Positions 11,963 through 63,069 of a stretch of DNA of 64,000 nt are shown here, in pieces. This stretch comes from a virus. A program made the translations under genes and the position numbers. Within the stretch, counting starts at the first letter, position 1; each line of letters begins with the position of its first letter. Where the stretch lies: the IMG/VR virus record IMGVR_UViG_3300042542_003748, positions 1 through 64,000 of that record, one strand, 5' to 3'. The notes under the pieces are model-generated. The model saw only the letters and a list, made by a program, of their open reading frames with translations. It had not been told where the DNA came from and did no database searches.

Positions 11963-12427
11963 ATGAAAAAGATAGTAAGATTAACAGAAAGTGATTTAAC
12001 TAATTTGGTTAAAAGGATAATTAAAGAACAAGATGAAAACGAAGAATATCTTGAAAAATTCAAGATATTAATTGACAATGAACAATTTGAAACGGCATTA
12101 CAATTAGGTGAAACATTAGATTTGGAAGACAAAGTTTTGGACTTAATTTTAGATAAAATAGTTAAAGAAGGTGACTTCAAGTGGTGGGTAAAAAAAGTAC
12201 ATTCTGTAATGAAAGAAAAAAAATATAGGCGGATTGATTCAGCCATTGATGATATAACGTATGAATTTATTGAAAAAGATTATTATGCAAATATATTATA
12301 TAACATAATTAACAATATGACAGACCAAAATAAAACAGATGAATTTTATTTTAAAATGATTAAACTGATATATTCTGAAATAGAAAAACAAATAAAAAAA
12401 GATGAAAAAGATAGTAAGATTAACTGA
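11963..12427 (+). CDS. Tagged protein, type A, helical body
   Basis: 154 residues. Residues 1-23 are the type A tag: MKKIVRLTESDL, then LVKRIIKEQ with the I20-K21-E22/Q23 site-like end. The body is predicted helical and highly charged; no family recognised. Its last nine codons are the DNA that encodes the start of the next gene's tag in another frame (26-bp overlap), so the tag cassette of the next gene supplies this gene's stop. If the tag works like a T4 capsid-targeting peptide, the protein would be packaged and cleaved after Glu22. Confidence 0.7.
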   Translation: MKKIVRLTESDLTNLVKRIIKEQDENEEYLEKFKILIDNEQFETALQLGETLDLEDKVLDLILDKIVKEGDFKWWVKKVHSVMKEKKYRRIDSAIDDITYEFIEKDYYANILYNIINNMTDQNKTDEFYFKMIKLIYSEIEKQIKKDEKDSKIN

Positions 12428-12800
12428 AAGTGATTTAGTTAGATTGGTTAAAAGAGTTATTAATGAAAAAAGAAATATGAATGAATACGAGTATTTTTAT
12501 TATATTCCAGATTGGTATGGTCCGAATACAATGTTTAATGAAAATGATGAAAAAGTAAAATTGTCAGATTATCCTGAAATTGAAGATGCCTTTAAATTCT
12601 TTAATAATGAAAATGTTGATATAATAAAACTTAATGAAGACGATAGGGACATGACATTAATTAGAAAAGTACATACGTTCATAGATGACAGCAATAATAT
12701 TTCTTGGCCATTCTTCAACGAAAATAGAATCCAAAAAATGTGGATGGAAAAATATTTGAAAAACGGATTAATATTAATAAAATTGAAAAAAAAACGATGA
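12402..12800 (+). CDS. Tagged protein, type A, unknown body
   Basis: 132 residues. Tag at 1-22 (MKKIVRLTESDL, RLVKRVINE, site-like I20-N21-E22), then an acidic, aromatic body (NEYEYFYYIPDWYGPN) with no recognised domain. Its tag DNA is nearly identical to that of the next gene although the bodies differ. It overlaps the next start by 4 bp. Confidence 0.7.
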   Translation: MKKIVRLTESDLVRLVKRVINEKRNMNEYEYFYYIPDWYGPNTMFNENDEKVKLSDYPEIEDAFKFFNNENVDIIKLNEDDRDMTLIRKVHTFIDDSNNISWPFFNENRIQKMWMEKYLKNGLILIKLKKKR

Positions 12801-13246
12801 AAAAGATAGTAAGATTAACTGAAAGTGATTTAGTTAGATTGATTAAAAGAGTAATTAACGAACAATCAATAAGTGGAAAAACTTTAGAAGATTTTAAAAA
12901 ATGGGCAATGAATAAACAAAATGAATGTCCAGAACCAACGGACCCTTGGGATAGATATTGCCCCCAAGGAACTTGGAAATATGATACTAGAAATGGGAAC
13001 ATTAGGTTTTTTTCTGATAAGAATGAAGTTGTTATGGAAACAACTATAATGCCTAATGATGACAAATACAACGGACCTGTGGTTGAGTTACAATATTTAG
13101 CAAATTGGGTATCTAAAAAAAATGTTCCATATTATAATGGTGTTTGGAAATGGGGAGGGGTAAAAGGAGCATGGAGTGCAGGTAATCTACAAAGTGTTAA
13201 TTTGTATGATAACGATAAAAATTTTTTAGGTACTATGACTTTTTAA
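12797..13246 (+). CDS. Tagged protein, type A, unknown body
   Basis: 149 residues from the ATG at 12797, chosen because it gives the conserved tag (RLIKRVINEQ, I20-N21-E22/Q23) and a 4-bp ATGA overlap; a longer reading frame from 12740 would bury the tag. The body has CPEPTDPWDRYCPQGTWKYD, a likely disulfide or metal pair, and a beta-rich C terminus (GVWKWGGVKGAWSAGNLQSV). Not recognised. A terminator follows. Confidence 0.7.
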   Translation: MKKIVRLTESDLVRLIKRVINEQSISGKTLEDFKKWAMNKQNECPEPTDPWDRYCPQGTWKYDTRNGNIRFFSDKNEVVMETTIMPNDDKYNGPVVELQYLANWVSKKNVPYYNGVWKWGGVKGAWSAGNLQSVNLYDNDKNFLGTMTF

Positions 13247-13258
13247 GTTTAAGAAAAA

Positions 13259-13295
13259 ATCCCCATCTCAAAAAAAGGTGGGGTTTCTTTTTTTT
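13259..13295 (+). terminator. Rho-independent terminator
   Basis: CCCCATCT / AGGTGGGG hairpin followed by a T-rich tract, 13 bp after the third tagged gene. Confidence 0.85.
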
Positions 13296-13323
13296 ATGAA
13301 GATTATTTCTTATATTTTCCATT

Positions 13324-16346: not shown

Positions 16347-16369
16347 TGAAAGAACCAAACTTACACGAT

Positions 16370-26807: not shown

Positions 26808-27104
26808 TTAAAATTTACCAAATCCTTTATTTTTAGGTTTCACACATCTTTTAAGTAACTCACCAATATAATATGATAATTTTTCTTTTTCATCCTCATC
26901 TAAGGTATCTTCATCCCAAATTAAGTTATCAAAATCATAAAGTTTATTTTGAATTTCATCCAAATCTGATTCATCTTTATCCAAATCTGATTCAATTTTA
27001 CTTAACATTTTTTTATAACTCTTCATAGATTCTTCATCCTCTTTGATTACTCTTTTAACCAATCTAGTTAAATCTCTTTCAGTCAATCTTACTATCTTTT
27101 TCAT
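26808..27104 (-). CDS. Tagged protein, type A, coiled-coil body
   Basis: 98 residues. Tag MKKIVRLTERDL, RLVKRVIKE with I20-K21-E22, then a highly charged helical body (SKIESDLDKDESDLDEIQNK) likely to form a coiled coil, ending in a basic GFGKF tail. It stands alone on the - strand under its own late-type box, opposite a host-type promoter for the small genes to its right. Confidence 0.7.
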   Translation of the reverse strand: MKKIVRLTERDLTRLVKRVIKEDEESMKSYKKMLSKIESDLDKDESDLDEIQNKLYDFDNLIWDEDTLDEDEKEKLSYYIGELLKRCVKPKNKGFGKF

Positions 27105-30247: not shown

Positions 30248-31240
30248 ATGAAACTACAAAAAATTATCAGAAACATTTTGATGGAAGAAACTACTTCAAT
30301 TAGTAAAGAAGTTGAATATCTACTTGGGAATCAAATCTATGTTGACGAGATATACAAACAATTAAGAGAAATACACCAAAACAATTCAAGAAATAACAAA
30401 GAAAATGTTCTAACATTCATCCAAGTTTTCTCAAAAAAATTAGATACCTTTTTTAATCAAATATTTTTAACAGGAACAAATGCTGAAAAGATATTAAATC
30501 TAATTAACAAAACATCAAATTCAGAGGTATCTCCATTATTAGAAAGTGAATCAACTAGTAGTTTGGGGTTTGAAAAGTTTAATGAGTATTTTAAGTATAT
30601 GTACTACTTGTACAATGATATTCAAAAAGTTGTAAACGAAATCAAAGAAACCCCAACATCAGATATCAATACTTTGAAACCAAAAATTGAAAGATATTAC
30701 AATTTAACAATCAAAGATAACAACTCAATGTTAGAGTTAATAAAAGCATTATTCCAATATCTTAAACAAAGTTATGGTAATATAAGTTCAGGTCAAACAA
30801 CCAAGTCAACTGAAACACAAGGAGGATTTAATATTGATTGGAGTACCAAACAAATTGTTAAAAGATATAGTGACTCAACAATAATATTCTTATCACCAGA
30901 AAAAGTATTGGAAAGAGTTGGTAAAGATATGGGTTCAGGTTTTGATATAAGAAATCAAGGTGTAAGAATTGGGGATAGATTAGAAAAGGCAATGGAATAT
31001 CTGAAAAATCCAAATGTCGAAGCATACCAACCAACAATGTTATATGTTGAAAGTTTTGAGTATGATAAGAATAGTCAAAAACAATATTATGATGTACCAA
31101 AAATTGGTATAAGTGATGGAAGACACAGATTATTAGCAGCATACAACTTAGGACTTAAAAGTTTCCCATTCGAAGTTTTCAACAGAGATGAAGAACAACA
31201 AATTAAGGACTTAAAATATTTGGAATCAACATTAAAGTAA
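30248..31240 (+). CDS. Tagged protein, type C, with ParB-like DGRHR motif
   Basis: 330 residues. Tag MKLQKIIRNILMEE (L11-M12-E13 site-like end), a helical region (about 20-190), and a ParB/sulfiredoxin-like C-terminal domain: PTMLYVESFEYDKN then IGISDGRHRLLAAYNLGL (DGRHR). The DGxHR signature suggests nucleotide binding or nuclease-like chemistry. Three bases separate it from the next tagged gene. Confidence 0.72.
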   Translation: MKLQKIIRNILMEETTSISKEVEYLLGNQIYVDEIYKQLREIHQNNSRNNKENVLTFIQVFSKKLDTFFNQIFLTGTNAEKILNLINKTSNSEVSPLLESESTSSLGFEKFNEYFKYMYYLYNDIQKVVNEIKETPTSDINTLKPKIERYYNLTIKDNNSMLELIKALFQYLKQSYGNISSGQTTKSTETQGGFNIDWSTKQIVKRYSDSTIIFLSPEKVLERVGKDMGSGFDIRNQGVRIGDRLEKAMEYLKNPNVEAYQPTMLYVESFEYDKNSQKQYYDVPKIGISDGRHRLLAAYNLGLKSFPFEVFNRDEEQQIKDLKYLESTLK

Positions 31241-31243: not shown

Positions 31244-33157
31244 ATGAAACTACAAGAACAAATAAATAGAATACACGAAATGATGGGACTTCTTACTGAA
31301 GTATATAATCCTAATGAGGTTCGGTACAAATATGTCGATGAAAAAAAAATAGTTACGTCAGAAAAATTTGACGAATTGAAAAATACATTCAAGGAATACC
31401 AACAATTCATATGGATTTTGAAAAAATTAGAATCAAATTGTATTTCGTATAATAAAATACCTGATTTTGTGGAATATTTCAAAATTTTCGATAAACATAA
31501 AAAAAATTTTCCAATAAAAGATTTAGGTCAGATAAAAACTTGTTCAGATGTCAAAAATTTTATTTCAATATCAAATGAATTAATTGATAAAATTTCATTT
31601 GAAGATGAACATTTTATAAATTTTTCTGATATCAAAAAACTAAATGAAAATTTTATTGAATATATGGGTGTCCATAGTGGATATCAAGTTTTTGTAATTC
31701 CTCATCTTGACTATAATCTTGAGTACGAATACATGTATGAACCTATGTACAAAGCATACAAGAATATATTGGGGGATTGTGAAAATCGTAATAGGAATAA
31801 TTATGTTAGATTTTGTACATTAACAAATAAACGAAAATTTGTAGACTACATAAATAAAGATTATCTTGTTGTTTTCCATCAAAAAAATAATCCTGAAACT
31901 CCCATACAAATTAGCCCCTTTTATGACTCAGAGTGTAAAAACAAAAATAATAAATTCGATGAATTTTCAGATACTTGTGAACAACTAATGAAAATAGCAA
32001 GAGATTTAGCACCAAAAGCTCAAAATAATTTTCTTGAAAAGTTATCGAAAAAAGAAGAGGAAAAAGAATTGGAAAAAAGAAAAAAAGAAGAGGAGGAAAG
32101 AAAAAAAGAAGAGGAGGAAAGATTGGCTTGGACTGAAAACATAACACAAGCAAAAATAGATGAATTAGAAAGTATTTATGCTCCCTCAATAGTGGATTAC
32201 GGATTGTTTGAAAAAATGGTAAAATTGTATCCAAATTATGAAAAATTGAGTTGGTTATTGAAAAGAATGGAATTAGGTTGTATTTCATATTATGATGTTG
32301 AAAATTATATTGAATATTTCACAACCTTTGAAAATAAAAGAGACCTCTATCCAATCAAAAATTTAAAAAATATTAAAATTTGTGATGATGTTTATGAATT
32401 TGTTAGGACATCCAAAAATTTGAAGAATTCAAATTTGAACGAACAAATAAATAGAATACACGAAATGATGGGAATATCCAAGGATGTTTTGACTGAAGGA
32501 AGATATAGTCAAACCATATTACAGATTTGGAGAGATATAAAAAGAGAGTTAATGGATTTCATCAGGGATGAAGAATCAACAGAACTTGAATGGGAGGAAG
32601 AATATTTCCAAGAAGAATTCGACTATGAAGATTTTATGGATGATGAAGAATATGATGACGAAGAGGAGGAAGAACAGTATTCAACAACTACTTTTACTGT
32701 GAGGCTTACAGCTATAACTGAAGATATACGCACACCATATGATATTCATGCTGAACAAAAGTGGGACGATGAAGATAGCATAGATGTTGTTAATTTACAG
32801 ATTTATATTGATACGAATTTCAAGATGGAGAATCTCAATAAATTGTTTGCTGAGTTAAAAGATGTATTAAGACACGAAATAGAACATTTATATCAATCTG
32901 AGAATCCATATAAAAAGGTCGAAGAAATACCCACCGATACATTTGCCGAAGAAGTATTAACACCAAAAGAAAAGGATGCTTATTTACAAGGTTTTTATAC
33001 TCAGGCAAAAACAAGGAAAATGAAAATGGATGATATTATCGATGAATGGGCGGATGAAAGAGAAGAATTATTCAGTTCAATTGAGGAAAAAGAATATGTG
33101 AAAAAAGAATTGATTAAACACGGAAAGAAATTATTACCACAAGCAAAATGGAGATAA
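31244..33157 (+). CDS. Tagged fusion: repeated domain plus metallopeptidase-like domain
   Basis: 637 residues. Tag at 1-15 (MKLQEQINRIHEMMG). Residues about 25-120 and 305-395 are two copies of one domain (shared ILKKLESNCISY/LLKRMELGCISY and FPIKDL/YPIKNL), joined by a long Glu/Lys helix. At about 397 a second tag-like peptide appears inside the protein (NEQINRIHEMMG), followed by an acidic stretch and an HEIEH zincin-like domain resembling the protein at 23215. It reads as two tagged genes fused. Confidence 0.72.
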   Translation: MKLQEQINRIHEMMGLLTEVYNPNEVRYKYVDEKKIVTSEKFDELKNTFKEYQQFIWILKKLESNCISYNKIPDFVEYFKIFDKHKKNFPIKDLGQIKTCSDVKNFISISNELIDKISFEDEHFINFSDIKKLNENFIEYMGVHSGYQVFVIPHLDYNLEYEYMYEPMYKAYKNILGDCENRNRNNYVRFCTLTNKRKFVDYINKDYLVVFHQKNNPETPIQISPFYDSECKNKNNKFDEFSDTCEQLMKIARDLAPKAQNNFLEKLSKKEEEKELEKRKKEEEERKKEEEERLAWTENITQAKIDELESIYAPSIVDYGLFEKMVKLYPNYEKLSWLLKRMELGCISYYDVENYIEYFTTFENKRDLYPIKNLKNIKICDDVYEFVRTSKNLKNSNLNEQINRIHEMMGISKDVLTEGRYSQTILQIWRDIKRELMDFIRDEESTELEWEEEYFQEEFDYEDFMDDEEYDDEEEEEQYSTTTFTVRLTAITEDIRTPYDIHAEQKWDDEDSIDVVNLQIYIDTNFKMENLNKLFAELKDVLRHEIEHLYQSENPYKKVEEIPTDTFAEEVLTPKEKDAYLQGFYTQAKTRKMKMDDIIDEWADEREELFSSIEEKEYVKKELIKHGKKLLPQAKWR

Positions 33158-46053: not shown

Positions 46054-46488
46054 ATGAAAAGAATTATAAGATTAACAGAGGGTGAATTAATTAAATTGGT
46101 AAATAGAATAATTTCTGAGCAGAATGTTGATTTGTATATTGACCAAGCTCCTCCTGGTGTTCCCACCTTTCAAGGTAAGATTGATATGGAAAAGATTGGT
46201 AAGGAATTGGGGATGGTTTTTGTCAACAATCAATTATATTATAAGGGTAAGAATGGTGGGGAATTAGAGTTGAAGGTTGGACCTAAGATTGTTGATGATG
46301 AGAGTACATATCGTTTGTTTGTTACTAGTCCCACATCTAATGTTGAACTGTCAAAGAAATTAATTAATGGAGTGGGTACGACAATGAATATGGAGAATGG
46401 GAAGACATTGGTATGGCAGGGTTATTTTAAGATGCCTGATTTTGATAAATTGAAGATGGAGATTAAATCGATAATGGGGTTATTATAA
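46054..46488 (+). CDS. Tagged protein, type A, beta-rich body
   Basis: 144 residues. Tag MKRIIRLTEGELIKLVNRIISEQ-like, reading I20-S21-E22/Q23. Body from DLYIDQAPPGVPTF to FKMPDFDKLKMEI, with a hairpin NQLYYKGKNGGELELKVG; a small domain with likely beta core. Unknown family. Confidence 0.7.
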   Translation: MKRIIRLTEGELIKLVNRIISEQNVDLYIDQAPPGVPTFQGKIDMEKIGKELGMVFVNNQLYYKGKNGGELELKVGPKIVDDESTYRLFVTSPTSNVELSKKLINGVGTTMNMENGKTLVWQGYFKMPDFDKLKMEIKSIMGLL

Positions 46489-46565: not shown

Positions 46566-47102
46566 ATGAAACATTTATTAAACGATTTATCTGGTGAAGA
46601 AAAAAATAGAATCTTGGAACAATATAATAATTCCTTGATTGTTGAAACACAAAAATTCAATAAATTATTGAAATCAAGTTTGGGAAATGTAAAACCATTA
46701 ATGGAAATGGATGGTGATGATGAATTTGAAATGACAAATGATGATGAATCAAGTGAATATCCTACCTATGAACAATTTAAGGATGAAATTGATGATTTCT
46801 TTTCTAACTATGGTGATTATATAAATCCTGAAAGATTAAAGCAAGAGGTTGATATGTTATTGGGTTTTATGAATGATGACTTTGAATATATTGGTGAGGG
46901 AAATGAGGAAAGGGTGGATGATGATGTTTCATATGAAAAAAAGGGTTCTCCATTGGTAACCATAACTGTGGATGGTGGTGATTTAATCAAGGCATATCTT
47001 GATAATGATTATAGATATGACTATGGTGTTAATTCTGTGGAATTGGGGGGTAGATTTTTCTTTGATGAGAATGTATATAATGACTTTATAAATAAAAACT
47101 AA
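46566..47102 (+). CDS. Tagged protein, type E
   Basis: 178 residues. Start MKHLLNDLSGEEKNRILEQ (I16-L17-E18/Q19), then a linker FNKLLKSSLGNVKPLMEMDG, which I recall from other aquatic phage proteins. The body is acidic, with a small beta-rich C-terminal domain (KKGSPLVTITVDGGDLIKAY). Unknown function; followed three bases later by a type A gene. Confidence 0.65.
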   Translation: MKHLLNDLSGEEKNRILEQYNNSLIVETQKFNKLLKSSLGNVKPLMEMDGDDEFEMTNDDESSEYPTYEQFKDEIDDFFSNYGDYINPERLKQEVDMLLGFMNDDFEYIGEGNEERVDDDVSYEKKGSPLVTITVDGGDLIKAYLDNDYRYDYGVNSVELGGRFFFDENVYNDFINKN

Positions 47103-47105: not shown

Positions 47106-47723
47106 ATGAAAAAAATAATTAGACTAACTGAAAGAGATTTATTAAGTTTGGTTAAACAAACAATAAATGAAATGGAAGAAAACAAAAAAGAATTTCCAAA
47201 ATCGTATAGAGAATTATATGATGATTTACCCCAAGAATTAAAAGAATTATTATTCAAACAATGGGATGCAAAACAGAATCCAAAATGGCATCCTGAGGGT
47301 AATTCATTAAAACATATTTTGGTTGTAATCAAGAGGGCGTATCATCATTATCCTGATGACCCCAATATGATAATGACCGCATTATTTCATGATTTGGGTA
47401 AAATGGATACCTATGGAATTAATCCTAAGACAGGAGAACCTACCGCATATGGACATGAAGATAAATCAGAAAAATATGTTGAACAATTTAGAGATTGGGT
47501 TGAATCTTATGAAGGAACTGATGTTGATGAAATAAAATATTTGGTTAAAAACCATATGAAGATTAAGCCATCAACTTGGGATGTTATGAAGGATGCAAAA
47601 AAAGAACCAATATCTTCTCATCCAGCATTTGATAAGTTGAAAGGTTTTACTGATAAGTTGGATGGTGGAGGTACAAATATATCTGAAGCCAAGATACGAG
47701 AAATAATTAGAAGGTTGGTTTAA
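47106..47723 (+). CDS. Tagged HD-domain hydrolase
   Basis: 205 residues. Tag MKKIIRLTERDL, SLVKQTINE (I20-N21-E22), then an HD phosphohydrolase: His in SLKHILVVIKRAYHHY, HD pair in TALFHDLGKMDTYG, a later His in AYGHEDKSEKY and Asp/Lys further on. It may act on nucleotides or phosphorylated metabolites. The short C terminus ends REIIRRLV. A terminator follows. Confidence 0.78.
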   Translation: MKKIIRLTERDLLSLVKQTINEMEENKKEFPKSYRELYDDLPQELKELLFKQWDAKQNPKWHPEGNSLKHILVVIKRAYHHYPDDPNMIMTALFHDLGKMDTYGINPKTGEPTAYGHEDKSEKYVEQFRDWVESYEGTDVDEIKYLVKNHMKIKPSTWDVMKDAKKEPISSHPAFDKLKGFTDKLDGGGTNISEAKIREIIRRLV

Positions 47724-47793: not shown

Positions 47794-48864
47794 ATGAAAG
47801 TTAGAATTACGGAGGAGGAAAAGGTTTTAATCAAATTATTGTATGGTATTTTGAGTGAACAAGAATCAAAACCTGAAATTAAAAAATCATCAGAGAGACA
47901 AAAACAATTTTGTCCTTATATTAATAAGGACTCTAAACAAATTGTTGATATTGAAAATATTTACGATTTTTACAAAAAACAACTTAATTTACCATCGATT
48001 ACAGTTGATACAACTATTTGGAATTATATTAATAATTTAATAAATAAAAGAGCTGAAATGTATTATAAAACAATAAAGAATGATAGAATTTCTTGTGAAA
48101 TTGCTTTGAATTGTATTAGACCATTGATGAGAACTTATAATTTGATTGTAGTTGACACTTTAAATCAATTGATATATCTGTTTGACCCGAATGGTAATTT
48201 TATTGCGAAAGATGTAATTATTTCAGGAAAAAACAAACAACCCACTAACCCTACGGATATAGCAAATGCTATGTTATCTTGGGATGAGTCAGCTATCAAA
48301 GCGGGTTTTAAATGGATTAATGGTAAGGGATATGTTGACCAAACAAGTCAGAATAGAAAATACAATCATGATTATGTGTATGATTGGATAGATAGAAATA
48401 ACAAGAGGTTTACCTCTCCTGGTGTTTATGATATGGGTACGATTACGAGTGACGCATCGTATGCGGGAAAGATAAATAATATAAAACATTTGGTTCAAAA
48501 TAACAAACAATACACACAAGCAATTCATGGTTATTACCTAGAACAACCACGAACATTAGTATTACAAAAGGCAAAAAAGTTTTTGGGAGATGTTAAAAAC
48601 CCTGAGGCAAAAAAGGAATTTATAAATGCGGTATCCACTGGTGGTTTAAATTTAGATTTATCATATGGTTGCATAAATTTAACAACAGAATTTTTGAATA
48701 TTTTACAAAAATATTGGGATAAAGCTAAAGTTTTTGTATTATCAGAATCCAATGAGAACTATTTGGTTGATAATTCTAAAAATTATTTCGATAAAATGTT
48801 AAATAGTGAGGTATGCCCATCTCCTCAATCACTTGGGGCTCAAGGTACTAGTAATTTTGTGTAA
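47794..48864 (+). CDS. Tagged L,D-transpeptidase-like protein (YkuD)
   Basis: 356 residues. Tag MKVRITEEEKVLIKLLYGIL then SEQ (L20-S21-E22/Q23). The C-terminal domain has YNLIVVDTLNQLIYLFDPNG, a His at 245 in IHGYYLEQ, and SYGCINLTTEF (Cys293), the catalytic pair of YkuD L,D-transpeptidases, which form or cut 3-3 peptide bridges in peptidoglycan. Spacing (48) is longer than in short family members. Its tag and late-type box suggest virion delivery to the wall. Confidence 0.75.
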   Translation: MKVRITEEEKVLIKLLYGILSEQESKPEIKKSSERQKQFCPYINKDSKQIVDIENIYDFYKKQLNLPSITVDTTIWNYINNLINKRAEMYYKTIKNDRISCEIALNCIRPLMRTYNLIVVDTLNQLIYLFDPNGNFIAKDVIISGKNKQPTNPTDIANAMLSWDESAIKAGFKWINGKGYVDQTSQNRKYNHDYVYDWIDRNNKRFTSPGVYDMGTITSDASYAGKINNIKHLVQNNKQYTQAIHGYYLEQPRTLVLQKAKKFLGDVKNPEAKKEFINAVSTGGLNLDLSYGCINLTTEFLNILQKYWDKAKVFVLSESNENYLVDNSKNYFDKMLNSEVCPSPQSLGAQGTSNFV

Positions 48865-49806: not shown

Positions 49807-50130
49807 ATGAAAGTAGAAATCACGGATAAACAATTGGAGAAATTCAAAAAACACATTCAAAATTTGATTGATGGTGAATTGGATAATTTGAGAGAAGAAT
49901 CTCAGGATTGGGGATTGGGTGAGATGGATGAATTGGAGGAGTTGGAATCTGTTAAGAGAATTGAGATTGATAGAATTGTGCCATATACAGGATTAAATGT
50001 TTATCTTAATTTTTATGTTAGTGGTAATAGAGAGGATTTTGATAATATTAGAGCAACAATTCAATATTTAATTGGTACACATTTCCCAAATATAAAATTA
50101 TTTTTCAACGATATAATATATGAAGATTAG
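49807..50130 (+). CDS. Tagged-like protein, type B
   Basis: 107 residues. Start MKVEITDKQLEKFKKHIQNL matches type B loosely but has no (I/L)-X-E site. Acidic N-terminal half, then VPYTGLNVYLNFYVSGNRED and a C-terminal FNDIIYED; alpha/beta body. The next gene begins 11 bp before its end. Confidence 0.6.
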   Translation: MKVEITDKQLEKFKKHIQNLIDGELDNLREESQDWGLGEMDELEELESVKRIEIDRIVPYTGLNVYLNFYVSGNREDFDNIRATIQYLIGTHFPNIKLFFNDIIYED

Positions 50131-50407
50131 AATTAACGAGAATCAATTTGATAGAGTATTACAAAAGTATTTGGATAAATTATTAAATAGATATTCAGGT
50201 AAGATATGTCGTTTTGAGGTTGATGGTTATGATGAGGATGATGTGTTTTGGATAATGGCTATAATATCTCAAGATTGGAGGGATGAAAATAATACTGATG
50301 ATTTTTGGATTGATGTTGTTAGATTAAAAAAAGAAATAAAAGAGGAATTGAAAACAATATTTTCAGGTATTAATTTTCACATCGGTTCTTATGTTGGAAA
50401 TTGTTAA
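50120..50407 (+). CDS. Tagged-like protein, type B
   Basis: 95 residues. Start MKIRINENQFDRVLQKYLDK with a small alpha/beta body (RFEVDGYDEDDVFWIMAIIS). It has the same layout as the genes on either side; probably paralogous, divergent. Confidence 0.6.
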   Translation: MKIRINENQFDRVLQKYLDKLLNRYSGKICRFEVDGYDEDDVFWIMAIISQDWRDENNTDDFWIDVVRLKKEIKEELKTIFSGINFHIGSYVGNC

Positions 50408-50419: not shown

Positions 50420-50863
50420 ATGAGAATTATTATTTCGGAAAGTAAGTTGGAGAAATTAAAACAAACCATATCCAAAAAGGTTATGGAAGATGGTATCTAT
50501 AATACGGCCAGAATGATGGGTATGGATACAAATCAATTTATTGATAGATTTGGTTTCGAGTTGGAGGATAAAAGAATTACTGATTTAATTGATTTCTATA
50601 TGGAAAATAAATTTCATAAAGTTTATGACTTCGATAAGAAAATTGGTATGTGTGACCTTTATGAAACCCCAAGTCAATTTCTTATTGTCGTAACTGAGGC
50701 AATTAATGAGTTTTGTTATAATAATTTTAATTTTACTTCTCATTATAATATTGATGAAGAAGATATGGAGTTTGAAAATATATTTTATCAAATGGAACAT
50801 TATCTTATCAAAAATTATGGTGAATTAATTACAAATACATTTATTAAAAATTGTGGGGAATGA
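50420..50863 (+). CDS. Tagged-like protein, type B, HTH-like core
   Basis: 147 residues from the ATG at 50420. Start MRIIISESKLEKLKQTISKK, then the HTH-like segment GIYNTARMMGMDTNQFIDRF shared with 37053 and 38389, and an acidic, aromatic C terminus. Overlaps the next ATG by 4 bp. Confidence 0.6.
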   Translation: MRIIISESKLEKLKQTISKKVMEDGIYNTARMMGMDTNQFIDRFGFELEDKRITDLIDFYMENKFHKVYDFDKKIGMCDLYETPSQFLIVVTEAINEFCYNNFNFTSHYNIDEEDMEFENIFYQMEHYLIKNYGELITNTFIKNCGE

Positions 50864-51309
50864 AAATTATAATAACTGAAAGTCAATTTGAAGATGCTGT
50901 AATAAGATATGTCAAGAAATCATTTAAGAATGAAATTGTTGATGTTTACTTCACAGGCAAGATGCTTGAGATTATTCTTCCTGGTGAGGAAAGTTTCAAA
51001 AGAGAAAATGCTATCAAAGTTCAATTACATAATGAATTAAAAAATATTTTCAGTAAGAGTTTCCCAATCCAAGTTCATTTTGAACAAAAGTTTTATGGTA
51101 ATGTTGAATTTGATGGTGATGATGTCACATTCACAAAGGAATTAGATAATGGTGAAATGTTTGAATTGACAGGAAGTATGCAAGAATTTCACGATGGTAG
51201 AGATTATGATTATGAGTTTGAGCCATCGTATATTTCCAACGAAGATTATTACTCAGATAATTGGGATATAATTGAACAATTCATACAAAATAAATTTTAT
51301 TATAGGTAA
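50860..51309 (+). CDS. Tagged-like protein, type B
   Basis: 149 residues. Start MKIIITESQFEDAVIRYVKK, then LEIILPGEESFKRENAIKVQ, an alpha/beta domain similar in plan to 49807, and a long acidic tail. End of the type B cluster; a terminator follows. Confidence 0.6.
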   Translation: MKIIITESQFEDAVIRYVKKSFKNEIVDVYFTGKMLEIILPGEESFKRENAIKVQLHNELKNIFSKSFPIQVHFEQKFYGNVEFDGDDVTFTKELDNGEMFELTGSMQEFHDGRDYDYEFEPSYISNEDYYSDNWDIIEQFIQNKFYYR

Positions 51310-51892: not shown

Positions 51893-52804
51893 ATGAAAAG
51901 GATTATAACTCTAACTGAATCTGATTTGACAAGATTAATAAAAAAAATAATAGACGAACAAACAACATCTTATCAAGCAGGACAACAACAAGGTCAAAAG
52001 GCCGCTCAAGCAACAAAACAAGCTGTAGGTCAGGCGGTAACTGCGGTAAAACAAGGTGCTCAGGTAGCCGGTCAAGCTATATCTAGTGGAGCACAACAAG
52101 TAATGAAAGCTGGTAAACAAACTATTGTGACTTTGGGTAACATTACCTTTACAATTGTAATATATGGTGCTGCAGTTATTTGGTTGATTGGTAAAGGTGT
52201 TTATAGAATAGCTAAAGCCACATCCGATGCTTTATTAAAATTATTATCATCAACAGGTAAATTAGTTATTGGGGGGGCAACTGAATTAGGTAAGAAATCA
52301 GTAGATACTTTAAAAGCTGGTGGTATATTAATTGATAAGGGTGCTCAATATGTAGGACAACAACTTTCTAACCTTAAAGATTCATCAGTAACCTTAGGTA
52401 AATGGATTATTGGTCAAGCAAAACAATTTGGTTCCAAGATTTATGCTGCAGTATTAAGTGGAGCATCTAAAATAGGTACAATTGCTAATTTGGTCGGAGA
52501 TTATCTTAAACAACAATGGTCAACAGTTCAAGCACAGGTTGGTAAAACTTGGGAACAAGCTAAATCTTTAGCTTCAGGTGCTTATCAGACAGCAAAAAAA
52601 ACAGCCCAAAATGTTGGTTCACAAATTTCGAAAACCGCAAGTGATATTGGTAGTGGTATTTCTAAGGCTGCAGGTAATGTTACTGGATTCTTGGGTGGTT
52701 TAATGAGTGAAATGTTTGAAAGGTATTTCAGTTTCGAAGGTGAGACAACATTAGATATACTTTTTGAAGCAAGAAGATTCAACGGAAAATCAATACTTTT
52801 ATAA
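51893..52804 (+). CDS. Tagged amphipathic/hydrophobic protein, candidate ejection protein
   Basis: 303 residues. Tag MKRIITLTESDL, RLIKKIIDE (I20-D21-E22/Q23), then a Gln/Ala-rich helix run (QAGQQQGQKAAQATKQAVGQ), one clear membrane segment (FTIVIYGAAVIWLIGKGVY) and long amphipathic helices rich in Ala, Gly, Lys and Ser. This composition resembles ejected internal-core proteins, tape-measure parts or apolipoprotein-like helices. It is a candidate membrane-entering protein, ahead of the lysozyme. Confidence 0.65.
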   Translation: MKRIITLTESDLTRLIKKIIDEQTTSYQAGQQQGQKAAQATKQAVGQAVTAVKQGAQVAGQAISSGAQQVMKAGKQTIVTLGNITFTIVIYGAAVIWLIGKGVYRIAKATSDALLKLLSSTGKLVIGGATELGKKSVDTLKAGGILIDKGAQYVGQQLSNLKDSSVTLGKWIIGQAKQFGSKIYAAVLSGASKIGTIANLVGDYLKQQWSTVQAQVGKTWEQAKSLASGAYQTAKKTAQNVGSQISKTASDIGSGISKAAGNVTGFLGGLMSEMFERYFSFEGETTLDILFEARRFNGKSILL

Positions 52805-52889: not shown

Positions 52890-53576
52890 ATGAAAATTAT
52901 AATTACTGAACAACAATACGATAATATTTTACAACAAGTAAATAAAACGATTGGAAATATAACTGACCCATATAAAATGGTGGGGATTCAAAGACCTTCT
53001 CAGAAAAAAATAGAAACAACAAAAAAGGTAAAACCAAAAGGTATTGCCAATCCTGAACCACAGAAAATTAGTGGGAAACAATTGATGGATGGTTCTGTTA
53101 TGAATATAACAAATGATTACAAAAAAATAGTTAGAGAATGGGAGGGTGACGCAGCAAATAGAATTGGTGGGGTAAAACAACCTAAGTTGGTAGGATATCT
53201 TGACTCAAGGGGAATACCAACGATTGGATATGGTCATACCGATGGTGTTAGGGTTGGTATGAAAATAACCAAAAAACAAGCTGAAGATTTTTTGGTTCAA
53301 GATTCTGGCGATGCTATTGGTTGTATCAGACGAATAATGGATGAATGGAAAAAAAATGATTTAAAAACTTATAAATTAACTCAAGGACAATTTGATGCTA
53401 TGGTTTCAATGACATTCAATGCTGGATGTACAAGTATGAGAAAATCTAGATTTATACAAGAACTAAAAAAAGGTAATACAAAAAAAGCTGCTGAACTTGT
53501 GAAAACTTTTTATATTGGTACAACAGAGGGATTAGCAAATAGAAGAGAACAAGAATACAATTTATTTATATCCTAA
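52890..53576 (+). CDS. GH24 lysozyme with type B tag
   Basis: 228 residues. Start MKIIITEQQYDNILQQVNKT, a linker (about 25-75), then a GH24 (T4/P22-type) lysozyme: IVREWEGDAANR with likely catalytic Glu85, SRGIPTIGYGHTDGV, TQGQFDAMVSMTFNAG, and GLANRREQEYNLF. It cleaves the glycan backbone of peptidoglycan. There is no Sec signal; the tag and late-type box suggest virion packaging, although the tag lacks an (I/L)-X-E end. Confidence 0.9.
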   Translation: MKIIITEQQYDNILQQVNKTIGNITDPYKMVGIQRPSQKKIETTKKVKPKGIANPEPQKISGKQLMDGSVMNITNDYKKIVREWEGDAANRIGGVKQPKLVGYLDSRGIPTIGYGHTDGVRVGMKITKKQAEDFLVQDSGDAIGCIRRIMDEWKKNDLKTYKLTQGQFDAMVSMTFNAGCTSMRKSRFIQELKKGNTKKAAELVKTFYIGTTEGLANRREQEYNLFIS

Positions 53577-53579: not shown

Positions 53580-54038
53580 ATGAAAAAGATAATTAAAAAA
53601 ATATTATTGGAAGAATACAATAACTCAATTCATAACTGGGAACTTCATCATCAACTTAATAAAAATGAATTTAGAATTACAAATAAGTTAAAGTTTGTTA
53701 ATGAAAACAAGGAAGAAAGATTAAAAAACTTGTTTGATTCTATGATGGAGAAGTATGAAAATCTAATTGAAGTTCAGAGGGAGTATGAAGATTTTAAGAC
53801 TTATGATATATACCAAGCATATGTTTATTATGTTGACCCTGAAATAGATTGGGAAGACGATGAATATGTGTTTAAAGTATTACCAGTAGACAATTCAGAC
53901 GATTACAATTTAGAATATCATGCTTGGGAACTTAAGAATGTTTCAGGTGCTTTTGGTAAAGAACTTTTCGAAAAAATGTTGAAAGCTTGGTTTGAAAAAA
54001 CTTACCAACTCCAAATCAACGCAGTTTATCCAGTTTAA
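53580..54038 (+). CDS. Tagged protein, type C, unknown body
   Basis: 152 residues. Tag MKKIIKKILLEE (L9-L10-E11), then IHNWELHHQLNKNEFRITN and an acidic, aromatic body (VDPEIDWEDDEYVFKVLPVD). Three bases after the lysozyme gene, so probably co-expressed. Confidence 0.65.
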   Translation: MKKIIKKILLEEYNNSIHNWELHHQLNKNEFRITNKLKFVNENKEERLKNLFDSMMEKYENLIEVQREYEDFKTYDIYQAYVYYVDPEIDWEDDEYVFKVLPVDNSDDYNLEYHAWELKNVSGAFGKELFEKMLKAWFEKTYQLQINAVYPV

Positions 54039-55428: not shown

Positions 55429-55668
55429 ATGTCATACAGAAAAACAAAACTCATACAAGAAAGAAATGTTTTAATTGAAAAAAATAGATTAATGGAACAA
55501 GGTGTTGTAACAACAACAACCACTAAAAAGTTGGATAAAAAAACATATGAGAACTTATCGTTATGTTCGAGTGTTAAAAATCCACCTAATCCTACTGAAA
55601 TTAAAACAGAATTCGGAGTTGTACTACAAGACCCTTCAGGTAAAGTACCTTATTGTCGAAAAGAATAA
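55429..55668 (+). CDS. Tagged-like small protein
   Basis: 79 residues. Start YRKTKLIQERNVLIEKNRLM ending L21-M22-E23/Q24, then a Thr-rich linker and a short Cys-containing end (YENLSLCSSVKNPPNPTEIK, GKVPYCRKE). It has the (I/L)-X-E/Q end but a different lead from the main classes, so I count it as a possible sixth type. Confidence 0.55.
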   Translation: MSYRKTKLIQERNVLIEKNRLMEQGVVTTTTTKKLDKKTYENLSLCSSVKNPPNPTEIKTEFGVVLQDPSGKVPYCRKE

Positions 55669-55670: not shown

Positions 55671-56507
55671 TTATACTATACCTGAGGCTTCTTTATCAAT
55701 GAGAGCTTTTACCTTTTCGTTTGCTTTAGCCCATGCACCACCACCTAATCTTCTGTCTCTATCGTTTTTAGCGATTTTGACTAATTCCTTCTCTGATTTG
55801 CCTTCATCAACACCTTTATTAATACTTTTTGCAAAATCTTTGAAGAAACCAGGACCATTCCACGTGGCGTATGAGAAGTGTAATAATAATGGATTACTAT
55901 TATTTACAATATTTCTTGCTTTTTCAGATAAATAATTTTTTGAATTTTTATCAAACAAACTTTTCATAGTTTTTACTGCTAAATCAAGTAATTGATTTTT
56001 AATTTCACCACCCCTATAATTCCAAGTCCATTTTTTACAAAAATTATCCATACCCATCTTTTCTTTTTGGTCATCAATCAACTGAAAGAATTTTTTTCCA
56101 TCTGAGGATATATCTTCAATCTTACCTGCTTCTCTATCCAATCCGAACATTGTTTCACCTGACCTACTATACATTCCTGTTTTACGAGGATGTTTTGAAC
56201 CTGGATAACCAGCACATTCAGGATTCCAATAACCGCCTTCAAAATTTTCAATAACCTTTTTTGTTATGTCATAAAAATCGCCTTTACCACTTGATTTATA
56301 CGGAGTAGTTTTATCATCGATTTCAGTATCTGATTCGGTATCTTTATTATCGGCATCAGGTGAAATTTTACCACTTCTATAATCATCTAGTTTTTTCATT
56401 GCGGTTTTAAAAATAATATCTAAAGGATTTATTTCTTGTTCAATTATTTTATACAAACTTTTGATTCTATTTTTCTCATTTTCTGAGATTATCATTCTTC
56501 TTGACAT
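55671..56507 (-). CDS. Tagged GH108-like lysozyme-like protein
   Basis: 278 residues. Type E start SRRMIISENEKNRIKSLYKI then IEQ (I21-I22-E23/Q24), linker INPLDIIFKTAMKKLDDYRS shared with the next gene, then NFEGGYWNPECAGYPG, RSGETMFGLDREAGK, and KKWTWNYRGGE, AWAKANEKVKALI. The Glu in FEGGY and the GETMFGLD segment recall GH108-type peptidoglycan hydrolases of phages; catalytic residues need confirmation. Confidence 0.65.
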   Translation of the reverse strand: MSRRMIISENEKNRIKSLYKIIEQEINPLDIIFKTAMKKLDDYRSGKISPDADNKDTESDTEIDDKTTPYKSSGKGDFYDITKKVIENFEGGYWNPECAGYPGSKHPRKTGMYSRSGETMFGLDREAGKIEDISSDGKKFFQLIDDQKEKMGMDNFCKKWTWNYRGGEIKNQLLDLAVKTMKSLFDKNSKNYLSEKARNIVNNSNPLLLHFSYATWNGPGFFKDFAKSINKGVDEGKSEKELVKIAKNDRDRRLGGGAWAKANEKVKALIDKEASGIV

Positions 56508-56519: not shown

Positions 56520-57815
56520 TTACACAAAGTTTTTAAAGTCACTAAAAAATTGACTTGGCATATCGGCATGTTTAACATTTCTTCGTACCTCAGGTTGAGT
56601 CGACTCTAAGTTTTTTAATCTTTCACCATGTTTTCTAAATTGCCCCGACCAATTTTCTTGTCTTGATATCATTTTGATGTTTGAGGGTAATTCACCATTA
56701 AAATTAGAACCAACAAATTGAGTTGCAAAATCAGGTACAACTGGGTCAATTAAACCCACCTTATAACCTTTAGTTGCTGCCTCCCAAGCATTTTTACCAC
56801 CAGCTGAAAATCCACTTACTGAAGTTATTTTAGCCTTAGGGTCTTGTAATTTAATCTGATTCAAAACATTGTCCAATGAATTTTCAAAATTACTATAAAC
56901 TACATTTTTGTCTGAAAGTATTTTTGAACCTTTATCAAACATAAACTGAGCACCATATGAACTACTTGGTGAACCACCGAAAACAATTGCATAATTTGAT
57001 GTATTATTATTTTTATCAACAATGATACCCCCCTTAGACATTTGTTTATCAAATCTTTTTTCTTCTTTTTTTGATGGCATTTTTGGAATCGTGCCAATAC
57101 CACCTTTATCTGTCACAGGAAAATTGAATTCTATGTGAACAGCGTTATTATTCTTTTCTCTTAGAACCTTTCTTATCCCAGAGTTTGGGGTTTTCATTAA
57201 TTTTTCTGCGGCACTTGCAAATTGTTCACTATATGGTGCAACATCGATAGCAAATCCAGGTATATGGTTACTTAAAACTTTACCTCTTTTTTTATCTCTA
57301 TCTTCTAAAAAATCAGCATATTGTTTTTGTGTTAATTCACCTGACATATATTTATCCCAAACATTTACCACATCTTGTCCATACCAAGATGCTATATTTG
57401 ACCTACTATTTTGTTTATTAACTCTCGCTTGGTCTTCATACGTTCTTAAAGTACTTGTAACTTTCAAATTTGATGTATTTGCTTGAGCAAAAATACTTTT
57501 AAGTAACAATTCAGAGGGTGAATTTAATTTTATTGCTGATGGTCCGTAAGTAATTTTAAAAGATTCAGCATTTGGATGTACAAAAAATTCTCCAGGTTCG
57601 AAACTTGATACTAATGAAGAATCATATTCACTACTATCGGATGTTGAATCAGATGTTGTCATATCTTCAGGGTCAATTTCACCTCTTCTAAATTTTTCTA
57701 ATTTATCTAATGCTGTACTAAAAATAATGTCTAAAGGAGATTTTCCTTGTTCATTAATTTTGTATAGACCTTTTATATGTTTTTTTTCTTCTTCAGAAAT
57801 GACAATTTTTTTCAC
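56520..57815 (-). CDS. Tagged M15 peptidase fused to alpha/beta hydrolase
   Basis: 431 residues; GTG start. Type E tag KKIVISEEEKKHIKGLYKIN then EQ (I20-N21-E22/Q23) and the shared linker SPLDIIFSTALDKLEKFRRG. Residues about 95-230 are an M15-like D-Ala-D-Ala carboxypeptidase (His184, Asp191 in HIPGFAID and His227 in AVHIEF). Residues about 270-430 form an alpha/beta hydrolase: IVFGGSPSSSY, nucleophile Ser337 in GFSAGG, Asp357 in LIDPVV, His416 in KHADMP. Two different activities in one tagged protein is rare. Confidence 0.75.
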   Translation of the reverse strand: MKKIVISEEEKKHIKGLYKINEQGKSPLDIIFSTALDKLEKFRRGEIDPEDMTTSDSTSDSSEYDSSLVSSFEPGEFFVHPNAESFKITYGPSAIKLNSPSELLLKSIFAQANTSNLKVTSTLRTYEDQARVNKQNSRSNIASWYGQDVVNVWDKYMSGELTQKQYADFLEDRDKKRGKVLSNHIPGFAIDVAPYSEQFASAAEKLMKTPNSGIRKVLREKNNNAVHIEFNFPVTDKGGIGTIPKMPSKKEEKRFDKQMSKGGIIVDKNNNTSNYAIVFGGSPSSSYGAQFMFDKGSKILSDKNVVYSNFENSLDNVLNQIKLQDPKAKITSVSGFSAGGKNAWEAATKGYKVGLIDPVVPDFATQFVGSNFNGELPSNIKMISRQENWSGQFRKHGERLKNLESTQPEVRRNVKHADMPSQFFSDFKNFV

Positions 57816-59078: not shown

Positions 59079-59381
59079 ATGAAAAGAATAGTACTTACAG
59101 AAGAAGAAAAAGAGGATATACTTGCCAAATACACAGAAGCTGACGATAAAGTTTTAGTTTATTTGAGGAGAAATTTTCCAGTCAATGAAGTTCCAACAGA
59201 ATTTCAGGAATACTTTGGTAAATATAGGATTTTAGTTGATGACAAGTCAGTTCCTGTAAGAGGTAACTTTAAAAAGTTGATTGATAAAATTGATAATTTA
59301 CTTGTTGATGTATTTGCGGATGTGGACGACAAAAAAAGAAGACAAACAATAAAAAAATATGTAAAATATTTTGAGGATTAG
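59079..59381 (+). CDS. Tagged protein, type E
   Basis: 100 residues from the ATG at 59079 (a longer frame from 59031 contains the promoter). Start MKRIVLTEEEKEDILAKYTE, no clear (I/L)-X-E site (Y-T-E/A). Body: VYLRRNFPVNEVPTEFQEYF, YRILVDDKSVPVRGNFKKLI; small helical domain of unknown function. Confidence 0.6.
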   Translation: MKRIVLTEEEKEDILAKYTEADDKVLVYLRRNFPVNEVPTEFQEYFGKYRILVDDKSVPVRGNFKKLIDKIDNLLVDVFADVDDKKRRQTIKKYVKYFED

Positions 59382-60876: not shown

Positions 60877-61254
60877 TTATTTACCACCAGAACCTTTTAC
60901 ACAATTTACAAAAGCCCCAACTTTAGCTAAAGCAACAGCCATATCTTTATCCTCTTCTTTGTTGCCAAAATTAACAGAAGTTACACATGCAAATGCTGTC
61001 TTATTTGCTTTTAATGTTTCTGTACCAAATTGTACATTAGGGTTACTTTTTATGTAACTTTCAAGAGCACTACAATTTTGAATAAGCAAATCTCTATATG
61101 GTTTCTTTTGGCCTTCTTTGAAATTAGGACCTAAGTTCATCATACCCTCTAAATGAGATTGTAATGGTTCCATACAACTTGTTGCTTGTTCACTGATTAC
61201 TCTTTTTACTAATTTAACTAAATCACTTTCAGTTAATCTTACAGTTCTTCTCAT
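60877..61254 (-). CDS. Tagged protein, type A, Cys-containing body
   Basis: 125 residues. Tag RRTVRLTESDL, KLVKRVISEQ (I20-S21-E22/Q23), then a body with four Cys (SCMEPLQ, NCSALES, FACVTSV, NCVKGSG) in a helical context, possibly two disulfides. Similar Cys-rich tagged bodies occur elsewhere in aquatic phages, from memory. Late-type box upstream on the - strand. Confidence 0.7.
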   Translation of the reverse strand: MRRTVRLTESDLVKLVKRVISEQATSCMEPLQSHLEGMMNLGPNFKEGQKKPYRDLLIQNCSALESYIKSNPNVQFGTETLKANKTAFACVTSVNFGNKEEDKDMAVALAKVGAFVNCVKGSGGK

Positions 61255-61293
61255 AATTTATTTTTTAATTTTTTTTATTTTCTATTATTTTAT

Positions 61294-61303
61294 AATAAAT
61301 ATG
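61294..61303 (-). promoter_or_regulatory. cATATTTATT box
   Basis: CATATTTATT on the - strand, 39 bp before the start at 61254. Confidence 0.45.
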
Positions 61304-61332
61304 TTTATCTTGTAAAAAAAAACGATGAGATT

Positions 61333-62055
61333 ATGAGAACAAGTATTTTATTCCTTTCATTTTTGGTTTCCACATCTATTTTTTGTCAAGTTACAATGAT
61401 GGTAGGTGATTTAACATTACCATCTAAATCAATTGACACAATTTCTGATGTTACTAATGGTATCATAAGAACTAACAAATTGTACATTGCTGAAGGTAAT
61501 GATGTTAATAAAAACAAACATTACTTCGATGGTGATGATATTATGTTTGTTGATGCCCAAAAATATGTAACTGAGGTTAATTCTGTTTTTTCAATTGACA
61601 ATCATTCAAAACCTAGTTTCATTTCTTTCAATACCACAAGATTAAAAATTGACTTGAATCAAAAGGTAAATTATTCTTTGAATTACATTCCTTTTTCTAT
61701 TTTCTACGTTGATAGTATTGTTGAGTACAAAACAAAGTATGATTTTAGAGTGGAGTTGATTTACAATGGTAGATTAGTTGAGTCTGTTGAAGTTCACTTT
61801 GATAGAATAACTGATAAAAGTTACACATTAGCTATGACTTGGTTCAATTCACTATCCTCAGAAGAAAAGATGAATATCAATAGTAATGACAAGGATGATG
61901 TATTAGCCGCTTGGATTGATAGAACATTTATGAGTTACTTATCTAAATCACTTCCAAACAAAGACTATTGTAAAACTCTAATCAAGAATGAAAAGTTTTC
62001 ATTTAACTACACTAATAAGGTTTACTACACAGACTTCCAAGACAAGGAATGGTAA
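61333..62055 (+). CDS. Secreted hypothetical protein
   Basis: 240 residues. Signal peptide RTSILFLSFLVSTSIFCQV, then a mixed beta-rich body with a Ser/Asp-rich middle (DSIVEYKTKYDFRVELIYNG) and a helical end (MTWFNSLSSEEKMN). Not recognised. Terminator follows. Confidence 0.6.
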   Translation: MRTSILFLSFLVSTSIFCQVTMMVGDLTLPSKSIDTISDVTNGIIRTNKLYIAEGNDVNKNKHYFDGDDIMFVDAQKYVTEVNSVFSIDNHSKPSFISFNTTRLKIDLNQKVNYSLNYIPFSIFYVDSIVEYKTKYDFRVELIYNGRLVESVEVHFDRITDKSYTLAMTWFNSLSSEEKMNINSNDKDDVLAAWIDRTFMSYLSKSLPNKDYCKTLIKNEKFSFNYTNKVYYTDFQDKEW

Positions 62056-62083
62056 AAAAAAACACTACGTAAGTAGTGTTTTT
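62054..62083. terminator. Bidirectional terminator
   Basis: AAAACACTACGT / AAGTAGTGTTTTT hairpin between converging genes. Confidence 0.85.
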
Positions 62084-62088
62084 ATATT

Positions 62089-63069
62089 TTAAGCAAGTTC
62101 TACACCTCCAGGATTTGGTGAATAAACCACAACAACAAGTTTACTTATTTTAGGATTTAGTTTGTTCATTCCCCCAATACCGCCTTTATCAATTTCGTTT
62201 TTAATTCTTGGACTCGCCTTAAACAATGATTCTAAAGAAGGTATAAAAATGTTATTCTGTTTTATTCCATTTTTTACAAATTCCAAATATTGTTGTCCAA
62301 TCATATCACGGAATGTTTCATATTTAGAATCCAATTGGTCATCACCTGTATCATCAACTTGTAATGTTAGATACACTTGCATTTTATCACCAAAGTAAGC
62401 TTGACCATATTTTTCAACGTTAGAAAATTTACCTAAATCAAGTCCTTGAACACCCTTTTTTTCAAACTCAGTCTTGAAGTTTCCGAATGCTTTTCTGAAA
62501 CTTTCTACAGCTCTCATAATATTATTTAATTCATCTCTAGTCATAGATGGTACTGAATTAACAAATGTCATAACGTTGTTTGGGTTCAGATTTCCTGACA
62601 AACCTAATCCTGAAGAAAGGTCACCAATCAATTTATTAAACTCATTACTAATTGTGTAAAAAGTAGGTCCTACATTTGGTTCGTCAACTGGTCTCCCTTG
62701 GTCTAAAGGTTGTCCATTTATTGTTAGTTTTCCTGCAAGACTATTTAGGTTCATAGTCAAAACGGAGTTCAAATAAGACTTCAGACTTTCTGATTCATCT
62801 TTAATAAAAAAATGAACACCATTTTCAATACCTGCAACATTGATAGGTTGTTTGGTAATTTGAGGTGATGGTATGTTACCAAGGGTTCTATCGAAGGTTA
62901 TTGTTGCACTTTGTACATCTGGTCTTATTGGAAATAGACCTTTGAAAGAATATGGGACACTATTTTTAAGGTAATTTCCTGCTTTGTTTTCATCACTTAC
63001 TTGTTCTGAGATTACTCTCTTAACAATTTTGTATAAATCATTTTCTGTTAATCTAATAATTGTTTTCAT
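62089..63069 (-). CDS. Tagged protein, type A, unknown body
   Basis: 326 residues. Tag MKTIIRLTENDLYKIVKR, VISEQ (I20-S21-E22/Q23), then a mixed body with IRPDVQSATITFDRTLGNIP, GQPLDQGRPVDEPN and a helical part (GLSGNLNPNNVMTFVNSVPS), ending in a beta-rich ISKLVVVVYSPNPGGVELA. No known domain; possibly a structural or virion protein. Confidence 0.65.
   Translation of the reverse strand: MKTIIRLTENDLYKIVKRVISEQVSDENKAGNYLKNSVPYSFKGLFPIRPDVQSATITFDRTLGNIPSPQITKQPINVAGIENGVHFFIKDESESLKSYLNSVLTMNLNSLAGKLTINGQPLDQGRPVDEPNVGPTFYTISNEFNKLIGDLSSGLGLSGNLNPNNVMTFVNSVPSMTRDELNNIMRAVESFRKAFGNFKTEFEKKGVQGLDLGKFSNVEKYGQAYFGDKMQVYLTLQVDDTGDDQLDSKYETFRDMIGQQYLEFVKNGIKQNNIFIPSLESLFKASPRIKNEIDKGGIGGMNKLNPKISKLVVVVYSPNPGGVELA

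Follow-up and report, generated by a model that had tools for sequence, protein, structure and literature searches.

We describe a set of short N-terminal peptides encoded in a stretch of 64,000 nucleotides (the window) out of the 66,285 bases of the linear virus record IMGVR_UViG_3300042542_003748. In the window, 36 to 38 genes encode proteins that begin with a peptide, or tag, of one of five classes (types A to E), joined to bodies that are otherwise unrelated. For types A, C and E, and probably also for D, the tags are likely to serve a large T4-type phage as interchangeable propeptides for capsid targeting, predicted to be cut by an S77 prohead protease, with their cargo delivered together with the DNA. 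At the sequence level this reading is based on the shared tags, on a boundary at (I/L)-x-E, on the exchange of tags between homologous bodies, on the protease and capsid genes and on an element upstream of tagged genes. We infer the host, probably a member of the Bacteroidota, as well as late timing, docking, cleavage, packaging and ejection.

In the proposed mechanism, the tagged proteins would be made late, alongside the head and tail proteins, and each would be docked by its tag into the prohead core, most simply onto the acidic scaffold. The S77 protease would cut the tags after (I/L)-x-E, as it presumably cuts the major capsid protein at LINE/A (the slash marks the putative cut), and the freed cargo would lie among the DNA and be delivered at infection. 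The principle is known from the packaging of internal proteins in T4; what is new are the scale and the modularity.

Shared starts on unrelated proteins

Re-reading of the window genes from the sequence gave nine type A starts, all with I20-x-E22; fourteen of type B (MKIIITESQ..), five of them with L/I-x-E15; six of type C, all with L-x-E; three of type D, all with I10-x-E12; and four clear starts of type E, three with the motif. Two weaker type E-like starts (46566 and 55429) both have it, and the motif was present in 26 to 28 of the tagged genes overall. This agrees with the first-pass annotation, which had reported about 38 unrelated proteins in five classes, 28 tags ending in (I/L)-X-E, I20-x-E22 in every type A tag and, within type B, a motif confined to five solenoid copies.

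Sharing was counted over pairs of proteins of at least 90 residues with non-homologous bodies and well-aligning residues 2-25. By this count 38 of the 85 proteins of the window record share their N-terminus, against 2, 0 and 2 for internal, C-terminal and shuffled control segments, which bears out the claim that unrelated bodies share their starts. The relatives G005, G007 and G014 gave 79/294, 85/308 and 82/308 (controls 10-41) and the Flavobacterium phage vB_FspM_immuto 26/167 (controls 2-10), signal peptides having been left in for all of these records. Once likely signal peptides had been taken out, the counts were 27/180 against 6-18 in G015 (first 200 kb), 5/147 against 0-4 in C48C1 and 8/148 against 0-4 in HTVC008M; T4, treated alike, gave 4/182 against 4-7 and was not above its controls.

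Profiles of the five classes matched 375 distinct proteins in residues 1-45, among 3,112 distinct open reading frames (ORFs) from five genomes and the loci L009-L151. There were 3 matches in residues 46-89 of the ORFs that were long enough, an N-terminal excess that is partly by construction because the profiles were trained on N-termini. These loci had been collected by way of type A itself or of the S77 and Gp23 genes on contigs bearing it, a choice in favour of that class. The matched proteins fall into 260 body families, and profile-tagged genes numbered 34, 25, 26 and 38 in the records G000, G005, G007 and G014. Three contigs pooled for the window's virus hold 325 ORFs, of which 38 were tagged at an expectation value (E) of 0.01. 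A few further starts on contig G027 resemble variant tags by eye.

A degenerate DNA pattern of the type A start matched at least 119 stretches in a viral collection and a single contig of 3.2 kb in 257 Gb of bacterial and archaeal genomes. A variant of type A (RLTESDLH..; L113, L125, L130, L245) exceeds the usual length by about four residues, its [ILVM]-x-E falling at residue 26; the single bacterial match, on a contig of a metagenome-assembled genome, carries MME at this position. Tags A and D had no match by tblastn in 50,697 phage records, where such short queries are weak. Four tag strings tried against paper texts did not occur there, and a literature search of titles and abstract openings returned nothing on such tags in Bacteroidota phages.

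The codons shed light on the history of the tags. At residues that are identical among copies inside one genome (12 tag sets), synonymous codons differed in 0.31-0.45 of cases in 10 of the sets, where independence predicts 0.45-0.56. The peptide is therefore conserved more than its DNA, and most tags are old. This bears on a rival explanation, in which the N-termini are mobile 5' gene cassettes of start region and promoter, spread by recombination without any targeting function. Cassettes would fit the common upstream element described below, the shared DNA of three adjoining type A genes (93.6% over 78 bases) and the shared codons of the type C copies of G007 (3 of 35 mismatched). Against them stand the synonymous codons, well towards random in 10 of 12 sets while the residues are kept, the tagged genes inside operons, of which 9 of 59 have the element, and the same end motif on tags of unrelated sequence. 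We regard functionless cassettes as very improbable.

The (I/L)-x-E boundary and the prohead protease

For type A, conservation was computed with one row per body family (n = 161). It was mostly 2-3 bits through column 22, with about 1 bit at columns 13 and 21, fell to 1.2 bits at column 23 and was at most 0.3 bits from column 24 on. The values inside the tag are inflated because the profiles ended at the tag; the drop after it is not forced by the procedure. Of the 161 families, 139 have Glu22 and 146 have I, L or V as residue 20. [IL]-x-E stood at the expected place in 138/161 families of type A, 15/18 of type C and 19/32 of type E, with 0-5 in inner control windows. In type D, Glu12 had been taken for the conserved end, and the relatives did not confirm this (5/15 families); [ILVM]-x-E directly after MMG was found in 11/15 (control window 4/15), and only with V or M allowed, and after MMG, does the type D peptide end at the motif. 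The earlier proposal of capsid-targeting propeptides cut by a gp21-type protease can be upheld, as far as sequence goes, for types A, C and E; in its original form it found no support for D, where the residue was the wrong one, or for most of B, which has no site. Counted simply over all proteins, [IL]-x-E within residues 9-27 exceeded internal windows by 37 in the window's virus and by 17-31 in relatives. One type C tagged protein of G005 (L153:9734-11641, 636 residues) contains the internal motifs ESVLEET, ESVLREE, ESILREE and ESVLKED between segments, as if it were a polyprotein cut into several cargo proteins.

Tags are exchanged between homologous bodies. More than one class occurred in 15 of 54 multi-member body families (single linkage at 1e-4, which may have produced a few chained or weak families), and in some cases the swap is within a single genome. 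The clearest case is the ..RYMFFSNLEQ.. family, where 77 of 80 fetched homologs could be parsed and gave 44 distinct N-termini of 14-29 residues, by eye of type A or type C kind, in a search biased to type A by one of its six patterns, which was taken from the tag. (I/L)-x-E lay 3-8 residues ahead of the body in 40 of these 44, and in the remaining four V or M replaces I/L. The phrog_7595 family (..EAEYKGRKVQLGK..) bears A, B or C tags here. Its member in the Kyanoviridae phage C48C1 begins with MKKFKQYIDE, close to MKTYQEFIAE of T4 IPII and IPIII; the member in pelagiphage HTVC008M has no such T4-like start.

A search of the genome for a gp21-like S77 protease found it on contig G027, which belongs to the same virus and overlaps the window record at 30965-66285 with 99.997% (contig G024 overlaps 1-30962, also with 99.997%). 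G027 carries S77 (E 7.5e-24), Gp23 (E 1.0e-64), Terminase_6N (E 4.1e-15) and a portal homolog, and its gene order is T4-like: terminase, portal, protease, scaffold and capsid protein, the scaffold being named from position and likeness to relatives only. The start of the capsid protein contains NQASFLINEATSDG, with the site LINE/A. The same place reads NQAS[HFY]LINEA in 10 and NEAKHLIYEA in 2 of 12 capsid loci (L140-L151), a predicted site LI[NY]E/A in all of them, and the S77 motifs LNHP and SSRG were present in 12 of 12 protease loci. Of 23 listed contigs with tags and a length of at least 89 kb, 16 hold Peptidase_S77, and the same 16 hold Gp23. The other seven have neither the clade's terminase nor a capsid gene nor any Terminase_6N, which was found in all three complete-head contigs (G005, G007, G027), and are thus probably fragments. 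Two tag-bearing contigs, G008 (274 kb; L037) and G010 (214 kb; L049), have no S77, Gp23 or Terminase_6N; they may be fragments or belong to a lineage whose head genes differ. A scaffold segment, ELVKESLNEQ, looked akin to tag A by eye; the scaffold was absent from the internal profile hits at 0.01, and the likeness is not claimed.

The tags might address another place, such as the baseplate or tail, the cell membrane or an intracellular phage compartment, (I/L)-x-E then only closing a helix used for docking. Peptidoglycan-active proteins do form the largest cargo group that can be recognised, and in other phages such proteins often belong to the tail or serve in lysis; a model of one type A tag, of very low confidence, moreover showed a strand plus a helix. 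We nevertheless consider a different address unlikely, since conservation stops at the motif of a protease that the virus encodes, the capsid protein bears the same kind of site and the motif stays at the junction in tags of different length.

The upstream element, the cargo and points against the propeptide reading

The heptamer TATTTAT was selected among the 7-mers most enriched before tagged genes, structural genes not being used. Up to 60 bases upstream it preceded 73/127 tagged, 22/34 structural and 4/30 replication or metabolism genes, 19/76 genes with signal-like starts and 279/1,213 others. It is strand-specific, with the reverse complement at 6-11% across all gene groups. For genes with an upstream gap of at least 20 bases the counts were 64/68 tagged, 21/29 structural, 3/15 replication or metabolism and 241/589 other genes; the difference between tagged and other genes (Fisher p about 1e-18) is optimistic, because the element was chosen on the tagged genes themselves, and this has to be held against the reading proposed here. 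All 13 window tagged genes with a gap have the element, and in G014 it lies upstream of the terminase, portal, protease, scaffold and capsid genes. We read TATTTAT as a putative late promoter.

Most scanned bodies of the window gave no clear database match; exceptions include the lysozyme at 52890 and the HD domain at 47106. The wider scan covered 110 body families, the longest of 257 referenceable ones among the 260, and few matched anything. In Pfam, the peptidoglycan-active group comprised PG_binding_1 (three families), phage lysozyme (two) and M23, LysM and tail lysozyme (one each); DUF6576 occurred in three families, and there were single matches such as HD and hydrolase. The PHROGs and NCBIfam lists are headed by endolysins and wall hydrolases, and defence-system models gave weak single matches only. 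Structure models of 62089-63069 (mean predicted local distance difference test score 32) and 35238-36185 (57) were too poor for use, and searches of the Protein Data Bank (PDB) for 35238-36185 and 56520-57815 found nothing. That 35238-36185 might be an ADP-ribosyltransferase like T4 Alt is a guess from sequence.

Several further observations weigh against capsid-targeting propeptides. TATTTAT also stands ahead of 41% of the other genes with a gap. Of the 38 profile-tagged genes of the pooled virus, 34 sit in the window record and 4 in the remaining 159 kb. Glu22 is missing at its column in 22/161 type A families, in some via misplaced starts, and an excess of plain [IL]-x-E was also seen in T4 (13), immuto (14) and C48C1 (9). 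The phrog_7595 homologs, of which 75 out of 80 could be parsed, show 63 distinct N-termini, and several of these have no recognisable tag. The tag classes were compared with MKTYQEFIAEA of T4 by eye only, and no class was shown to be alike. All 12 codon sets lie below the expectation for independence, and the type C sets of G007 (0.09) and G014 (0.28) look recently copied. The peptidoglycan-active cargo could equally be tail-borne. The bodies behind the tags exceed other proteins in acidity, whereas the internal proteins of T4 are basic. Tag charge was +2.8 for type A, +1.5 for type C and +0.3 for type B, and the scaffold has -74 to -88; being clear only for A and in part for C, a basic charge cannot account for the docking of all classes on an acidic scaffold. 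Attraction between tag and scaffold was accordingly dropped as a general basis of docking.

Type B, with 14 of the window's tagged genes, is another difficulty, as it has no general (I/L)-x-E at residues 11-19 (14/51 families; control windows 2-7). It may be a device of its own and no gp21-type propeptide, with an N-terminus that stays uncut and serves as an adaptor, bringing proteins to the core or to one another; we give this view somewhat less than an even chance. The scarcity of the site and the near-neutral charge fit such an adaptor; B was found, however, in body families that also carry A and C, the three window type B genes with an upstream gap carry TATTTAT, and the site is present in the five solenoid copies. 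Type B probably belongs to the same system as the propeptides, mostly remaining uncut or being cut elsewhere.

Comparison with known systems and further features of the window

Passages of PMC9026906 state that T4 gp21 cuts after L/I-X-E and that the 10 N-terminal residues of IPIII are sufficient for entry into the head; a passage of PMC3012670 adds that T-even internal proteins are diverse, the targeting sequence alone being conserved. As in T4 IPI, IPII, IPIII and Alt, so far as these passages describe them, a short N-terminal peptide with an L/I-X-E end is found here on unrelated proteins, known in our case from sequence, and an S77 protease gene lies near portal, scaffold and gp23. Unlike the T4 system of those passages, the present one has five classes of other sequence, mostly longer (about 13-26 residues against 10), and between 25 and 38 genes tagged by profile per record (four records) against a handful, a great expansion, as the first-pass annotation had expected. 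Other differences from T4 are TATTTAT ahead of nearly all tagged genes with a gap and the peptidoglycan-active proteins among those tagged.

The head of the giant phage SPN3US contains more than 50 gene products, many of them ejected, according to passages of PMC10052503, and its gp245 system likewise cuts N-terminal propeptides after a motif ending in Glu. It differs, in the same passages, by the motif A-X-E, by nine substrates with 42 head proteins judged uncut, and by the length of its N-terminal propeptides (111-254 residues in 6 of 8); these passages describe no shared tags. By capsid protein, the nearest Bacteroidota phage among the matches listed is immuto (NC_055915; 41% over 57%). The head cluster of this cultured relative is of T4 type and includes a gene annotated as prohead core serine protease, and the phage has unrelated proteins that share the N-termini MENFDLKKFLVEN.., MKKSELVKLIKEE.. 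and MKKQILSEQFKRMQ.. (L200-L203), several with (I/L)-x-E; it differs in that tag classes A-E occur in 0/228 of its ORFs. No virion proteome of immuto was found in the parts of the literature covered by a search.

If the tags are propeptides as proposed, part of the unknown genes in a widespread group of large phages would form one class, virion-delivered and readable from the first 13-26 residues, and what these phages inject would become testable by one proteomics run. There would be new packaging tags beyond those of T4 and a rich store of proteins that probably act against the host or on the cell wall. More broadly, and here we see nearly even prospects, these abundant uncultured phages may possess a general platform for protein delivery, with tens of cargoes per genome, several zip codes, release in the prohead and co-delivery with DNA, cell-wall hydrolases included; the classes may then sort layers or release stages.

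Tagged genes of the window, with the motif at the end of the tag (residue number of Glu, then after a slash the next residue; none, no [IL]-x-E) and the position of the upstream TATTTAT
Position	Strand	Type	Motif	TATTTAT	Remarks
11963..12427	+	A	IKE22/Q	11927-11933	
12402..12800	+	A	INE22/K		
12797..13246	+	A	INE22/Q		
26808..27104	-	A	IKE22/D	27131-27137	
30248..31240	+	C	LME13/E	30236-30242	opens run of C and D genes
31244..33157	+	D	LTE19/V		637 aa; motif after MMG
33148..34551	+	C	LKE13/S		by eye, outside profile set; body matches phrog_17560
34548..34865	+	C	LRE13/E		
34858..35241	+	C	LRE14/E		
35238..36185	+	C	LRE13/Q		
36187..36564	+	D	none		none after MMG
36561..37052	+	D	V-N-E18/S		motif after MMG
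37053..37619	-	B	none		last of nine-B-gene run 37053-41942
37619..38392	-	B	IKE15/S		solenoid
38389..38964	-	B	none		body family shared with 37053-37619
38961..39305	-	B	none		
39289..39687	-	B	none		
39684..40256	-	B	LIE15/G		solenoid
40253..40903	-	B	IIE15/S		solenoid
40900..41493	-	B	IIE15/N		solenoid
41490..41942	-	B	LIE15/N	41963-41969	solenoid
46054..46488	+	A	ISE22/Q	46033-46039	
46566..47102	+	E-like	ILE18/Q	46547-46553	by eye, outside profile set
47106..47723	+	A	INE22/M		HD domain
47794..48864	+	E	LSE22/Q	47775-47781	
49807..50130	+	B	none	49795-49801	
50120..50407	+	B	none		
50420..50863	+	B	none		
50860..51309	+	B	none		
51893..52804	+	A	IDE22/Q	51855-51861	
52890..53576	+	B	none	52869-52875	phage lysozyme (PF00959, E 5.3e-26)
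53580..54038	+	C	LLE11 or LEE12	53563-53569	by eye, outside profile set
55429..55668	+	E-like, possible	LME23/Q	55409-55415	by eye
55671..56507	-	E	IIE/Q		
56520..57815	-	E	INE22/Q	57829-57835	GTG start; weak VanY match below cut-off
59079..59381	+	E	none	59066-59072	
60877..61254	-	A	ISE22/Q	61295-61301	
62089..63069	-	A	ISE22/Q	63087-63093	

The protein of 31244-33157 has a second type D tag internally, at residues 397-411, which suggests a fusion of two tagged genes. The five solenoid paralogs lie together in one type B run (37619-41942), which suggests local duplication. Rfam and tRNA scans of the window gave no matches.

Some other genes of the window were characterised by reading of their sequences. 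The products of 16346-16900 and 54125-54757 are apparent cell-wall glucosaminidases with hydrophobic, signal-like starts and no tag; together with the tagged lysozyme at 52890 they may perhaps represent two delivery routes for wall enzymes. The 942-residue protein of 23941-26769 reads like a TonB-dependent outer-membrane receptor with a signal peptide, which to our knowledge is unusual in a phage. Finally, 19078-20778 encodes a secreted protein of 566 residues whose C-terminus resembles a sorting domain of type IX secretion, which points to a host among the Bacteroidota.

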